From: an uncultured Dysgonomonas sp.
Lineage (GTDB): Bacteria > Bacteroidota > Bacteroidia > Bacteroidales > Dysgonomonadaceae
Length of the DNA stretch: 64,000 nucleotides
Assembly: GCF_900079725.1 (NCBI RefSeq)
Contig: NZ_LT599032.1
Span: 680,948-744,947 of the forward strand
Reading direction: 5' to 3'
The notes beneath the pieces were generated by a model. The model ran no database searches. It had not been told where the DNA came from and saw only the letters and a list, made by a program, of their open reading frames with translations. Within the stretch, counting starts at the first letter, position 1. The number at the start of each line of letters is the position of its first letter. A program made the translations under genes and the position numbers. Below are positions 11,611-17,372 of the stretch, piece after piece.

Positions 11611-11920
11611 GTTAAAAGGTAACAAAGGTAACGCTTTTTCTACCTATTACTTTTTACCCTCTCTGTGGCCTCCCCTCGGGGCAGAGCTGTTAAGTTCTAT
11701 TTTTTTACCCTCTGTGTCATGTTGAACGGAGTGAAACATCTCGTTTTTCAGGGTCGGGATCCTTCGTTCCACTCAGGATGACAGCAGAAAATAACAGAAC
11801 AAAGTAGAGAACTTAACAACCCTGCCCCGAGGGGAGGTTGGAGGGGGCAATCAATTTTTCAAAGAACTATAAGCTATCAGCTAAAGGCTATCAGCTCTAA
11901 CTATATAGATAATTATCTTC
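11611..11920. repeat. Intergenic repeat family B, copy 1 (with nested inverted-repeat insert)
   Basis: Shares with 43419-43620, in the same order, GTTAAAAGGTAAC-AAAGGT, CCTATTACTTTTT, a G-run hairpin, CAAAG-A/G-CTATAAGCTA, CAGCTAAA and ATATAGATAA. This copy is ~110 bp longer because its middle is a 30-bp inverted repeat: left arm 11669-11698 and right arm 11808-11837, 28 of 30 matching with both differences allowing G-U pairs. Inside that is a second, looser inverted repeat (11715-11741 and 11757-11783, beginning TGTCAT and ending ATGACA) of the REP-like type common in Bacteroidota intergenic DNA. Confidence 0.75.
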
Positions 11921-12402: not shown

Positions 12403-12432
12403 AAAAGAATCGGCGAAAGCCGGTTCTTTTTT
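12403..12432 (+). terminator. Intrinsic terminator of the small lipoprotein gene
   Basis: Stem AAAAGAATCGGC / GCCGGTTCTTTT (one T-G pair) with GAAA tetraloop and following T-run. Confidence 0.85.
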
Positions 12433-12506
12433 ATTTCAGGAATACGGTTCTATAAGTAATTTAATGTATTTTTATGCACTTAATTACAATATAAGTTTTG
12501 TAAAGC

Positions 12507-13095
12507 ATTTATTGTCGTAATTAAATGTTTGATTAATTTTGACTCCACTTCGTTTCGTCAGAATATTCATTTTGCCTTGATGCAAAACGAACCAAAAAAT
12601 CAAGGCTGCATCCCTCGGCGACCCAAAACCGTAGCTTCGGTGGGGCAAAATAATACGAAGTCATCTTTAGTCGGATTATCGACCGGGTATAACTGCTACC
12701 CTATTTTGCTCTACACCTCCGCTTTACGGATTGGGTGCCCGCCTGTGGGACGAGGCCGAGACCGCAATGCGGCGACGAGAGGCTGTCTTATTTGAGTTCA
12801 AAGGGCTTCGCGCCCCTAAGGCGTCAGCGGACGCGCATTAGTTCTGCAGGCGGGGCACCCACACGGTGCAGGAGGCGTAGATGGTGATGGGGCGATAGCC
12901 CATTCGTCACTATCAGCCGGCAAGCCGACTGTGGGTCGCCGAAAAACTTAGCGCTAGCCTTTTGCTTACTTTTGGGCAATGCCAAAAGTGAGGACAAGCC
13001 CGGGAGGGCGCGGCAGGACTGAGATAAGGCCGCAAGTCCGAGAAAAGGTATGGCTATTGTACAAAACAATCAGACAATTAAATACGACAATAAAT
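12507..13095. repeat. Structured foldback repeat family A, copy 1, with 28-bp terminal inverted repeats (MITE-like)
   Basis: The element is bounded by imperfect inverted repeats at 12507-12534 and 13068-13095 (25 of 28 match; shared core ATTTATTGTCGTA). It is homologous over its length to 16636-17210, in the same orientation. Internal stems are long: 12570-12575/12582-12587, TCGGCGACCCA (12615-12625) with TGGGTCGCCGA (12932-12942), 12733-12745 with 12847-12860, and a hairpin at 12965-12975/12982-12992. It encodes no transposase. Its GC content is higher than that of neighbouring intergenic DNA. It could be a non-autonomous transposable element, a structured RNA, or both. It abuts the DUF418 gene, whose promoter may lie in the right end. 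Confidence 0.8.
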
Positions 13096-13126
13096 ATCAT
13101 TTATTACTTAATACCTGAAAACAATT

Positions 13127-14311
13127 ATGGAACAATCACCTTTATCTAAAATGCCCCGTATAGAAGTTGTTGATGCTCTCCGTGGATTTGCTGTTATGGC
13201 AATCTTACTTGTACACAGCCTTGAGCATTTCATTTTTCCTGTATATCCCGATCCTCTATCGCAACCCGAATGGCTGAATATTCTGGATAAAGCTGTATTC
13301 AGTATAATATTTACTCTTTTTGCAGGCAAATCATACGCCATCTTTGCTTTGCTTTTCGGTTTTACCTTCTATATCCAATTGGCAAACCAGCAGGCCAAAG
13401 GCCGGGATTTCGGATACCGTTTCCTGTGGCGCTTGGTACTTTTAGTTGGTTTTGCCACACTGAACGCAGCATTCTTTCCTGCCGGAGATGTTTTATTATT
13501 ATTTTCCATAGTCGGTATTTTCCTGTTCATTGTCCGCAACTGGAGTGAAAAAGCTATACTGATCACTGCTATTATTTTTCTGTGCCAGCCCATTGAGGTC
13601 TTCCATTATATCGCCAGCCTGCTCAATCCCACATATACACTACCCGATCTCGGAGTAGGCAGAATGTACGGAGAGGTGGCAGAATATACAAAAAGTGGCA
13701 ATTGGGGTGAATTCCTTTGGGGAAACATCACACTCGGACAAAAAGCTAGTCTTTTCTGGGCCATAGGTGCAGGGCGCTTCTTGCAAACCGCAGGACTTTT
13801 TCTGCTCGGATTCCTTATCGGAAGAAAAAAACTGTTTATCTCGTCGGATAGCAATATTAAATTCTGGATTAAGACACTAATCATTTCAGCTATATTATTC
13901 GCCCCGCTGTATCAACTTTGGGTGGAATTGTCGGCCAGCAACAATGCCATAGTAAAACAAAGCATAGCTGTATTATTGGATATGTGGCAAAAGCTCGCAT
14001 TCACTTTTGTACTGGCATCCTCGTTTGTACTGCTATATCAGAAGGAGAAATTCCGGAATATGGTTTCAAACCTGCGTTTATACGGAAAAATGAGTTTGTC
14101 TAATTACATCACACAATCTATCACCGGAGCATTGATTTATTTTCCTATCGGACTTTACCTTGCCCCTTATTGCGGATATGCGTTAAGCCTGCTTATAGGA
14201 CTGGCAACTTTCTTCTTACAAGTACAATTGTGTAAATGGTGGCTAAAAAGCCACAAACAAGGTCCATTGGAAAGATTGTGGCATAATCTCACATGGATTG
14301 GAAGTAAATAA
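13127..14311 (+). CDS. DUF418 family multi-pass membrane protein
   Basis: A 394-residue inner-membrane protein. It starts RIEVVDALRGFAVMAILLVHSLEHF, the N-terminal signature shared by DUF418 and DUF1624 (heparan N-acetyltransferase-like) families, and ends with the DUF418 segment LRLYGKMSLSNYITQSITGALIYF. About ten hydrophobic spans are visible. Members may transfer acyl groups across the membrane, but the substrate is unknown. It starts 31 bp after the end of repeat A copy 1, and no separate -7 box is visible. It and the next gene are bracketed by the two copies of repeat A. Confidence 0.85.
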   Translation: MEQSPLSKMPRIEVVDALRGFAVMAILLVHSLEHFIFPVYPDPLSQPEWLNILDKAVFSIIFTLFAGKSYAIFALLFGFTFYIQLANQQAKGRDFGYRFLWRLVLLVGFATLNAAFFPAGDVLLLFSIVGIFLFIVRNWSEKAILITAIIFLCQPIEVFHYIASLLNPTYTLPDLGVGRMYGEVAEYTKSGNWGEFLWGNITLGQKASLFWAIGAGRFLQTAGLFLLGFLIGRKKLFISSDSNIKFWIKTLIISAILFAPLYQLWVELSASNNAIVKQSIAVLLDMWQKLAFTFVLASSFVLLYQKEKFRNMVSNLRLYGKMSLSNYITQSITGALIYFPIGLYLAPYCGYALSLLIGLATFFLQVQLCKWWLKSHKQGPLERLWHNLTWIGSK

Positions 14312-14404
14312 CTCATTAAAGAATCCTTGGACGTAAATAAGGGTCAGTTTAAATTTTTCACGAATATTTAAACAGGCTCTAAATACCACTCTTACAAAAA
14401 TCGG

Positions 14405-14412
14405 TATATTTG
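14405..14412 (+). promoter_or_regulatory. -7 box (TATATTTG) of the dipeptidyl peptidase gene
   Basis: Consensus motif 25 bp before the ATG at 14437, so the peptidase gene can be transcribed independently of the DUF418 gene. Confidence 0.55.
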
Positions 14413-14436
14413 CAATAAATAAAAATACAAAAAAGA

Positions 14437-16590
14437 ATGAAAAATGTTTTTGGATTGCTGCTTGCCGGCTTACTCTTTACTTCAGCCCATGCGCAACGTT
14501 TAGACCTCAGGGATATTAATGCAGGAAAATATTACGCACGTGGCGTACAACCTGTAACATCGTCAACTGACGGAGAATCATATTTTCAGGCCGACAGGGA
14601 CAATAAAATGATTATCAAATATTCGTATAAAACAGGATTGCCTACCGATACGATTTTTAATGTAAAAAAAGCCCGGGATTGTACATTCGACTCATTTCAG
14701 GGTTTTCTCATAAGCCCTGATGAAAAACGATTGGTCGTATACAATGATTCCGAGTCCATATACCGCCATTCTTTCAAAGCAAATTATTATTACTATGATG
14801 TGCGCCGCAATCTGGTGCGCAAACTGACCGAAAACAAAAGCAAACAATCTGTACCGGTATTTTCCCGCGACGGACGTATGCTTGCTTATGTGATAGACAA
14901 CAATATCTGGCTGGCTAAATTCGATTACGATACAGAATCGCAGGTAACCAAAGACGGTGAAATAAATAAAATCATCAATGGAGGTACCGATTGGGTATAC
15001 GAAGAAGAATTCGGAACTACCAGGCTGATGGATTTTTCGGCCGACGGAGGCTTATTAGCTTTTGTCCGTTTCGATGAAACCGCCGTACCGCAATATTCTA
15101 TGCAGATGTATGGCAATCAGTTGTACCCGTCGCTGTTTACATTCAAATACCCAAAAGCAGGAGAACAAAACTCAAAAGTAACATGTAATGTGTTCGATAT
15201 AGATGCCAAGACTATCCGCAAAATGAATATCCCTGAAAGCACGGAGTACATCCCGCGTATAGAATTCCTTCCTACGGGTGACGAACTGGCTATTATGACT
15301 CTGAACCGTGACCAGAATAAATTTGAAATGTTCTTCACCAACGCCCGTTCTGCCGTTCCCCGCTCGGTGCTAAACGAGGTGAATAGCCGTTATGTAGATT
15401 CCCAATCATTGAATACAATACACTTCTTTGGGAATCAGTTTACATATGTAAGCGAAAGAAGCGGCTACGCCCATATCTATCTGTACGACAATACAGGTGT
15501 AATGCAGAAACAACTGACTTCGGGCAATTACGATGTAACCGGCCTGCTTGCCGTAGACCCTGTTGCAAAAGCTGTATTCTACGAAGCTGCAGAAGAAAGT
15601 CCCTTACAACGCGCCATTTATAAAGTAGATATGGTGAAAGGCATCAAAACGAAGCTATCGGCTAAACAAGGCACAAATGAAGCGACATTCAGTGAAAACG
15701 GTAAATATTATATCAACAGCTATTCCAACACATCTACGCCAAAGATAACCACTGTGCATGACGCCACAGGCAAAGAACTACGGGTACTGGAAGACAATGC
15801 CGCTCTAAGTAAAACACTGGCATTAATGACTCTTCCCAAGAAAGAGTTTATAACTGTAAAATCGGCTGATGGCAGGGATTTGAATGCATATATAATGAAG
15901 CCTGCCGACTTTAATCCGTCCCGTAAATATCCGCTGGTTATGGTGCAATATAGTGGACCGGACTCACAGCAAGTACAGGATCGTTATGGTATGGACTGGA
16001 CTGATTATCTGACCACCCAGGGCTTTATAGTAGCCTGTGTAGACGGACGCGGCACAGGAGCCAGAGGGGAAGAATTCCGTAAATGTACCTATATGAATCT
16101 GGGTATCTATGAATCGGATGACCAGGTGGCTGCCGCTAAACACTTTGCCACACTTCCATATATCGACGGCAGCAAAATGGCAATCTGGGGATGGAGCTAC
16201 GGAGGGTATAATGTACTGATGAGTATGAGCCGTGGTAACGGCACATTTAAAGCCGGAGTGGCAATTGCACCAGTAACCGATTGGCGCTTCTACGACTCTG
16301 TTTACACTGAACGTTTTATGCGTACACCTCAGCAGAACAATGCAGGATATGAAGCCGGCTCACCTGTCAATTTTGCAAATAAGCTGGAGGGGAATCTATT
16401 ATTGATACACGGTTCGGCAGATGATAATGTACATTTCCAGAATACGATGGACTATGCTGCTGCTCTGGTAAAAGCAAACAAGCAATTCGATATGTTTGTG
16501 TTTACAGACAAAGACCATTCGATACGGGGTGCGGCTAACCGTACTTATCTGTATGAAAAAGTAATTAAGTTTTTGAAAACAAATCTGTAA
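14437..16590 (+). CDS. Dipeptidyl peptidase IV (S9 family)
   Basis: A 717-residue exported serine peptidase that removes dipeptides (typically X-Pro) from the N-terminus of peptides. The signal peptide covers residues 1-19 (LLFTSAHAQ). An N-terminal beta-propeller contains the substrate-anchoring glutamates in VYEEEFGTTR. The C-terminal alpha/beta hydrolase has the full triad: Ser587 in GWSYGG, Asp662 in HGSADDNVHFQ and His694 in KDHSI. The length fits bacterial DPP IV. In Bacteroidales such enzymes act in the periplasm on host or dietary peptides; a peptide transporter is encoded 10 kb downstream. Confidence 0.95.
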   Translation: MKNVFGLLLAGLLFTSAHAQRLDLRDINAGKYYARGVQPVTSSTDGESYFQADRDNKMIIKYSYKTGLPTDTIFNVKKARDCTFDSFQGFLISPDEKRLVVYNDSESIYRHSFKANYYYYDVRRNLVRKLTENKSKQSVPVFSRDGRMLAYVIDNNIWLAKFDYDTESQVTKDGEINKIINGGTDWVYEEEFGTTRLMDFSADGGLLAFVRFDETAVPQYSMQMYGNQLYPSLFTFKYPKAGEQNSKVTCNVFDIDAKTIRKMNIPESTEYIPRIEFLPTGDELAIMTLNRDQNKFEMFFTNARSAVPRSVLNEVNSRYVDSQSLNTIHFFGNQFTYVSERSGYAHIYLYDNTGVMQKQLTSGNYDVTGLLAVDPVAKAVFYEAAEESPLQRAIYKVDMVKGIKTKLSAKQGTNEATFSENGKYYINSYSNTSTPKITTVHDATGKELRVLEDNAALSKTLALMTLPKKEFITVKSADGRDLNAYIMKPADFNPSRKYPLVMVQYSGPDSQQVQDRYGMDWTDYLTTQGFIVACVDGRGTGARGEEFRKCTYMNLGIYESDDQVAAAKHFATLPYIDGSKMAIWGWSYGGYNVLMSMSRGNGTFKAGVAIAPVTDWRFYDSVYTERFMRTPQQNNAGYEAGSPVNFANKLEGNLLLIHGSADDNVHFQNTMDYAAALVKANKQFDMFVFTDKDHSIRGAANRTYLYEKVIKFLKTNL

Positions 16591-16635
16591 TAATGCGAAT
16601 CAGTAGTTGAAATAAGATTCACAGAAACGAAGTGT

Positions 16636-17210
16636 ATGTAATTTTAATATTGGTTTTTTATTGACTACACTTCGTTTCGTCTGAATGTTCATTTTGGTAT
16701 TACCCAAAACGAACCAAAAGACTAGCGCTTCGTTTCTCGGCGACCCAAAACCGCAGCTTCGGTGGAGCAAAATAATACGGAATCATCTTTAGCCGGATTA
16801 TCAGCGAGGTATAGCAGCTACCGTATTTTGCTCTACACCTCCGCTTTACGGATTGGGTGCCCCGCCAGCGTCACTAATGCGCGGGAGCGGACGCCATAGT
16901 GAGGGCAAAGCCCTTAAATCAAATATGCATCAGCCTTGTCGTGCGTCAGCGGACGCCATTTGCTTTATGGACGGGGTACCCATAGGGTGAAAAAGGCTAA
17001 AAAACGAAAACGTGTTTGAGCTTGTCTACAGATTCGTATTATGCTCTATTCAGAGCGAGTTTTTTCGTTTAGCCTTTAAGTCCGTTATGGGTCGACCTAT
17101 AAAGTGGGCGTCAAAGCATTTTTGATTACTTTTTTTGCTTAGGAAAAAAGTAATACAAGCAATCTGTGATTGTGCGTAGTAGAAAAAAACAATTTTATAC
17201 TACAATAATT
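16636..17210. repeat. Structured foldback repeat family A, copy 2
   Basis: Homologous to 12507-13095 in the same orientation, e.g. the shared CACTTCGTTTCGTC and CTCGGCGACCCAAAACCG. The outer ends (near 16636-16658 and 17189-17210) are decayed relatives of the copy 1 terminal repeats. Hairpins are kept with compensated bases: TTTTGG/CCAAAA at 16692-16697/16704-16709 where copy 1 has TTTTGC/GCAAAA, and ATTACTTTTTT/AAAAAAGTAAT at 17125-17135/17144-17154 where copy 1 has a GG/CC version. Another strong stem pairs 16665-16674 homologous sequence GAGCAAAATA (16765-16774) with 16821-16833. The copy carries an additional hairpin before its left end. Confidence 0.8.
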
Positions 17211-17372
17211 GCTTTAACTACTGTATTGATATAAAACATTTTTTTAGCCACATGCCGTATCATAATTTACATGTCTTTATGGAGTAAAATGAACAATTGA
17301 GACCTCTCATCTTATCGAATATGAATTTCTGATAAAAAACACGCTTATAATAACATATCGTGAACTTTTCAT

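Follow-up and report, generated by a model that had tools for sequence, protein, structure and literature searches.

MITECca01 of Cardinium, a ∼240-bp element derived from ISCca4 (IS982 family) (PMC9769881), is among the closest described systems to the repeat family that we report here. As far as the accessible sections of its description go, it shares with the Dysgonomonas family the lack of genes, a host in the Bacteroidota, IS982-family ends, and a genome that still carries an eroded parental copy, whereas a four-way foldback, arm families, and shuffling of half-elements are not described for it there (PMC9769881). BrickBuilt of Porphyromonas gingivalis is likewise a Bacteroidales MITE with insertion-sequence-like ends and a repetitive non-coding interior; however, that interior consists of 23-nt tandem repeats and its ends are of the CCGAAAGGTCTC/AAGACCTTTGCA type, and we see no relation to our family in the accessible part of its description (PMC4596501). 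BIMEs and REPINs are also alike in being inverted pairs of hairpin units that are mosaic, intergenic, and multi-copy, but the Dysgonomonas family differs from them in its halves of ∼250–300 bp, its terminal repeats, and its 7-bp target duplication, and no link to Y1 transposases was found for it. REP units, for their part, are tens of bases long and tied to Y1 transposases.

Two copies of the family lie in the window, the whole 64,000-nucleotide stretch of an uncultured Dysgonomonas sp. chromosome that was analysed. We consider it highly probable that the family consists of non-autonomous transposons (MITEs) of Dysgonomonas that an IS982-like transposase mobilized in trans. The kind of element is known, while the version is unusual: a MITE of IS982 type whose four-way foldback is modular and heterodimeric.

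A dispersed gene-less family

Sequence comparison confirms the homology and shared orientation of 12507–13095 (copy 1) and 16636–17210 (copy 2), paired in a preliminary description as non-coding copies; the only ORFs overlapping them are of 60–90 aa, and neither contains a transposase gene. Copy 2 is slightly longer than first described, reaching inverted-repeat ends on both sides, the right one from ∼17212 (Table 1). Searches of the host genome and of related Dysgonomonas genomes, proposed in that description, both yielded many further copies. In the own 5,219,467-base chromosome, BLAST gave 62 matches to copy 1 and 75 to copy 2, and the family occupies at least 43 places of this 5.2-Mb chromosome, 42 of which we took with flanks (L001–L043 minus L041, a repeat of L019; L051 is one more). 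A 366-base core query is matched by 12 of 25 Dysgonomonas genomes.

Under naive ORF calling, the 42 places show neither a fixed gene partner nor a fixed direction (29 tandem, 8 divergent, and 5 convergent gene pairs). We rejected a role as terminator, convergent sites (5/42) not being favored. Terminator-like sites number four in the stretch of copy 1 (0.9 expected), one of them (12403–12430) upstream of the element, and two in the stretch of copy 2 (0.9 expected). By eye, another large inverted repeat of the window (CCTCCCCTCGGGGCAG ... CTGCCCCGAGGGGAGG) occupies 11633–11850, upstream of 12117, and encloses a CATGTTGAACGGAGTGAAACATCTCG-like stretch. We found no description of the element or its end hairpin in the open-access literature, including by sequence string. 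One primer, designed for a deletion near BT1222 of Bacteroides thetaiotaomicron, contains the hairpin string, according to the accessible part of that source.

Table 1. Features of the two element copies, in window positions
Feature	Position	Strand	Remark
Copy 1 (= L001), alpha-beta type	12507–13095	.	intergenic; end ∼30 bp before ATG at 13127
Left subterminal inverted repeat ATTTATTGTCGTA, copy 1	12507–12519	+	pairs with 13083–13095
Left end-hairpin module, CTTGAT loop class, copy 1	12566–12605	+	ATCAAGG downstream (12599–12605) complementary to loop
Closing stem P1, 5' strand TCGGCGACCCA, copy 1	12615–12625	+	pairs with TGGGTCGCCGA, 12932–12942
Alpha side arm, copy 1	12626–12731	+	
Stem P2, 5' strand, copy 1	12731–12745	+	pairs with 12847–12861
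Central arm, copy 1	12746–12846	.	differs from copy to copy
Stem P2, 3' strand, copy 1	12847–12861	-	
Beta side arm, copy 1	12860–12928	+	
Closing stem P1, 3' strand TGGGTCGCCGA, copy 1	12932–12942	-	
Right end hairpin, copy 1	12965–12992	-	CATTGC loop class on inward strand; without loop partner
Right subterminal inverted repeat TACGACAATAAAT, copy 1	13083–13095	-	
Copy 2, alpha-gamma type	16594–17226	.	intergenic
Left terminal inverted repeat TGCGAATCAGTAGTTGA, copy 2	16594–16610	+	
Left end hairpin, copy 2	16688–16713	+	TATTAC loop, without loop partner
Closing stem P1, 5' strand, copy 2	16736–16747	+	
Alpha side arm, copy 2	16748–16853	+	
Stem P2, 5' strand, copy 2	16853–16866	+	pairs with 16970–16982
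Gamma side arm, copy 2	16984–17085	+	
Right end hairpin, copy 2	17124–17164	-	CCTAAGCA loop class on inward strand; TGCTT beyond it complements the loop
Right terminal inverted repeat, degenerate (CTTTAACTACTG...), copy 2	17212–17226	-	end-motif score 7.5

Unlike halves joined head to head

The interior consists of two half-elements placed head to head, each with an end, an end hairpin, a closing-stem strand, a side arm, and an inner-stem strand, and the variable central arm sits between them. Three families of side arm (alpha, beta, and gamma) are shuffled between copies; the 28 elements of the own genome with two unambiguous arms comprise 16 beta-gamma, 7 alpha-beta, and 5 alpha-gamma combinations. 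What had been described as a central hairpin kept in both copies despite unrelated sequences is indeed a hairpin in each, but it is the right side arm, beta in copy 1 and gamma in copy 2.

Each arm family has a fixed polarity relative to the nearer end, which holds for 56/56 arms in the own genome and 70/70 arms of 35 elements in other genomes, that is, for 126/126 arms of 63 two-armed elements; this count omits single-armed copies as well as L016, L019, and L020, whose alpha hits overlap on the two strands, and among the 35 only elements identical in sequence were collapsed. None of the 63 carries two alike arms. The 13 beta-beta elements among the 35 combine two different subtypes, with an identity of 0.42–0.68 over hits of unequal length. 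Long near-perfect palindromes tend to be lost by bacteria (palindrome instability, SbcCD), and two like halves would form such a palindrome, which may be why only unlike halves persist. Since the copies descend from few founders, the missing like halves are suggestive, short of a clean test.

Terminal repeats and target duplication

Where similarity between copies runs out, the elements end in inverted repeats, which are best rendered as (T)GCGAATCAGTAGTTGA. With an end-motif matrix trained on 23 ends from the own-genome set, scores above 5 occur at one or both ends of 25 of the 42 own places, and at both ends of 11 (99th percentile of the null 3.0; the matrix comes from the same set). At the other 17, copy 1 included, the motif never exceeds 5, the outermost terminal repeat of copy 1 having decayed. 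Loci of other genomes stand outside the matrix training, and there 32 of 35 hits scoring at least 20 lie within 160 bp of a core. The pattern AATCAGTAGTTGA, allowing one mismatch, likewise exceeds its reversed control in G007 (75 vs 5), G013 (51 vs 7), G012 (18 vs 4), and G009 (22 vs 6).

Direct repeats flank the ends in 11 own elements (permutation P = 0.0018) and in seven from other genomes (P = 0.0029, 9-mer test), and pooling 19 elements gave a target duplication that was equaled in 0 of 20,000 permutations. Per-position matches in the 9-mer across these 19 elements reach 14, 16, and 16 at positions 3, 5, and 7 (8.3, 7.7, and 6.7 expected), with no excess at positions 1 and 9. We therefore set the duplication at 7 bp, with the target T-W-A-W-T-W-A, a length first taken as 9 and changed to 7 after inspection of the data. 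Target sites of the family are AT-rich. To our knowledge, target duplication is not expected with Y1 enzymes.

Shared ends with an IS982-like insertion sequence

Among the PF01609 genes of the genus, we found in G012 a 1,060-bp insertion sequence (L332) with the same ends (scores 17.6 and 29.0), an intact 303-aa transposase ORF, and TTAATTA flanking it at both sides. Of three families, NCBIfam IS982 is the best match of its transposase (E = 6.6e-34; 117.6 bits against a family cut-off of 130), and its Pfam matches are DDE_Tnp_1 and DDE_Tnp_1_3. Transposase similarity and a size of ∼1 kb are in line with the IS982 family, in which IS1187 of Bacteroides has 7-bp direct repeats; the Dysgonomonas ends begin TGCG/GCG, unlike the AC of 57 of the 69 members listed in the accessible part of the source (PMC7335449).

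Relatives of the L332 protein occupy seven distinct places in five genomes, six of them with the end motif, and include two short deletion derivatives with both ends, one in the own genome and one in G019. The former, a 278-bp derivative at ∼C1:281549–281826 (L346 1483–1760), retains both ends and the last 38 transposase codons. A second end motif lies 1 kb from this remnant (L346 532). No complete transposase copy was found in the own genome by PF01609, and L332 matches only the 38-aa remnant there, so that present mobility in this genome is doubtful. Three other candidate sources were rejected: a 2.1-kb span of G007 bounded by terminal inverted repeats (L295) contains no transposase, and none is present at L053 or L054. 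We infer that this transposase, acting in trans, would have spread the foldback family.

Element sites in a close relative

The close relative G006 lacks the own element at L015, its flanks being joined there. This is the sole presence/absence site, and a deletion in G006 may explain it instead because the L015 copy is without canonical ends or a clear duplication. At the site of copy 2 (L105), G006 has 81 bp with end-like relics, as judged by eye, vs 593 bp in the own genome. At this locus G006 also has a terminator-like hairpin after the 717-aa ORF.

At L026, the G006 element occupies the same place in the opposite orientation, with 80.5% identity over 569 bp when reversed, between flanks that are identical at 540/560 and 573/597 positions. 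Both an in-place inversion with fast divergence and a replacement by another copy would fit this site. At L076 of G006, the right flank of own L028 is joined to the element of own L012, a locus 33 kb away, and to the right flank of that locus; this exchange of flanks fits a putative 33-kb inversion between two element copies. The proposal of a mobile foldback element has thus held up, given the many copies, terminal inverted repeats, 7-bp duplication, presence/absence site, and insertion sequence with the same ends.

An end-hairpin module found across Bacteroidia

The end-hairpin module is laid out as a hairpin, an A-rich linker, and a segment complementary to the loop. When modules are delimited independently of the loop, 56 of 129 (5.2 expected) show a loop that matches the sequence past the linker over at least 5 nt. 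By loop class, the match is found in 27/27 for CTTGAT, 13/16 for CCAAAGCC, 1/13 for CCTAAGCC, and 0/34 for CATTGC, the commonest class.

Within the order, where two candidates per genome were scored, 22 of 393 genomes match; in the 19 that lie outside the genus, the match is confined to the left end hairpin. The CTTGAT-class pattern is present in 83 of 395 Bacteroidia genomes and 56 of 196 genera, with no hit of the reversed control in any of the rows listed; copies number 72 in G573 and 50 in G697. In G573 (L385 1–900) and G698 (L382 7500–8600), which represent other genera of the class, the CTTGAT module heads tandem units of ∼240 and ∼333 bp, respectively, in which another foldback stands behind it.

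We would guess, at clearly less than even confidence, that recognition acts on end hairpin plus arm in single-stranded form (ssDNA or RNA). Also at clearly less than even confidence stands a broader proposal, in which the end-hairpin module would be a class-wide Bacteroidia part, a pseudoknot-forming single strand recognized by some enzyme and carried by different gene-less elements; in Dysgonomonas, an IS982-type MITE would have acquired it, and it would there have become part of heterodimeric four-way foldbacks.

Base pairing and alternative readings

The hairpins named in the preliminary description are present: on the left, TTTTGC/GCAAAA at 12570–12587 and TTTTGG/CCAAAA in the left end hairpin of copy 2, and on the right, CTTTTGG/CCAAAAG and the CTTTTTT/AAAAAAG version in the right end hairpins of copies 1 and 2, respectively. 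The long-range closing arms pair in copy 1, but copy 2 keeps only TGGGTCG (17088–17094) on the 3' side. RNA folding of each window copy beats 100/100 shuffles (z = −10.2 for copy 1 and −5.3 for copy 2).

Our arm alignments took the hits that were distinct, without N, and nearly full length (74/115 beta, 26/44 alpha, and 49/72 gamma). Of the 19 pairs in the 74 beta arms, 12 have changes in both partners; double-change cells number 102 vs 20.2 in shuffles that keep copy relatedness in, homologous copies not being independent in these counts, and 95.8% of cells are paired vs 87.0% in the shuffles. Sliding the partner strand abolishes the signal, and RNAalifold recovers the same fold. Whole stems have been replaced and still pair. 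The compensatory changes first noticed in two copies therefore stand in the multi-copy beta-arm test, whereas part of the difference between the window copies is an exchange of whole arms, beta vs gamma.

Three orthologous pairs of copies give the short-term view. Broken base pairs number 7, 3, and 16 (6.9, 3.9, and 18.0 expected), and double pair-keeping changes 0, 1, and 2 (0.08, 0.10, and 0.35 expected); there is hardly any recent pair-keeping. The reading of the pattern as selection on a fold thus gains no support here, the changes breaking pairs about as often as chance. In favor of constraint, two of the three elements are more alike than their flanks (575/596 and 591/620 vs 1216/1364, 1095/1175; 986/1103), with 96.5% and 95.3% identity for L009/L087 and L012/L076 and 89–93% for the flanking DNA.

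A serious alternative, though short of probable, is that pairing is a by-product of DNA replication, with quasi-palindromes corrected by template switching and arms copied between repeats without any selection on a fold. The replacement of whole stems while pairing holds, the exchange of whole arms, the element seen inverted in place, and the little short-term selection against broken pairs among the orthologs all speak for it. However, fast correction predicts double changes, of which the orthologs have 3 (0.53 expected) beside 26 broken pairs, and this process leaves unexplained why the end module keeps a fixed geometry throughout Bacteroidia; nor does it account for the strand bias described below, so far as that bias is valid.

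A structured RNA family that acts in trans or regulates in cis, whose transcript must fold and for which the transposon ends are a mere vehicle, is in our view an unlikely identity for the core. The strong folds of both copies, the excess of double changes in beta arms, the loop partners of the end modules, and the two orthologous elements that are closer than their flanks argue for it. So does an excess of G.U over A.C mismatches on the outward-reading strand, 54 to 26 when only pairs predicted from both strands are counted; in end hairpins with a loop partner it is 13 to 2 (seen as A.C on the inward strand), vs 228 to 209 in other hairpins. Yet a wider pair set reduces the bias to 66 vs 52 and reverses it for gamma, which makes it weak and dependent on the pair set; the loop partner is absent from 34/34 CATTGC and 12/13 CCTAAGCC modules; broken pairs in the orthologs are near expectation; and no constant gene partner or direction was seen. 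Rfam has nothing at gathering score in the element, the sole match above threshold being a tRNA elsewhere; the best hit on 12480–17240 (E = 0.12) lies outside both copies, and six related loci gave none. On this evidence, a structured RNA family is no more than a possible reading.

Very improbable is a REPIN/BIME-like element that a Y1 (HUH) transposase would process in single-stranded DNA form. Head-to-head hairpin pairs and high copy number would suit it, and atypical structures flanking TnpA-REP genes of subclass 2.6 in Bacteroidetes are mentioned in the accessible part of one study (PMC6006769), but the 28 Y1 loci of the genus are not flanked by element repeats, which rejects a Y1/RAYT link for the genus (an element match is near only two, L254, 30 bp, and L255), end modules whose loop partner measures at least 5 nt are absent from all 28, and 1,326 ORFs from 89 loci with or near end modules gave no Y1 hit with a profile of 12 Dysgonomonas Y1 proteins, which could miss remote ones.

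Proposed history and significance

Under the preferred MITE reading, an IS982-like transposase would have cut and pasted gene-less copies in trans. The passenger between the ends would be two half-elements joined head to head, the whole closing as a four-way foldback. Recombination between shared inverted repeats probably exchanged alpha, beta, and gamma halves and turned copies round, as suggested by the mosaics, the one inverted site in the relative, and the one 33-kb rearrangement that breaks at an element.

We found no description in the open-access literature of the hairpin module that, in one loop class, extends across Bacteroidia. As a bacterial foldback with countable orientation rules and arm exchange, the Dysgonomonas family offers a natural test case for the survival of long palindromes, and the element would be a source of chromosome rearrangement in Dysgonomonas.
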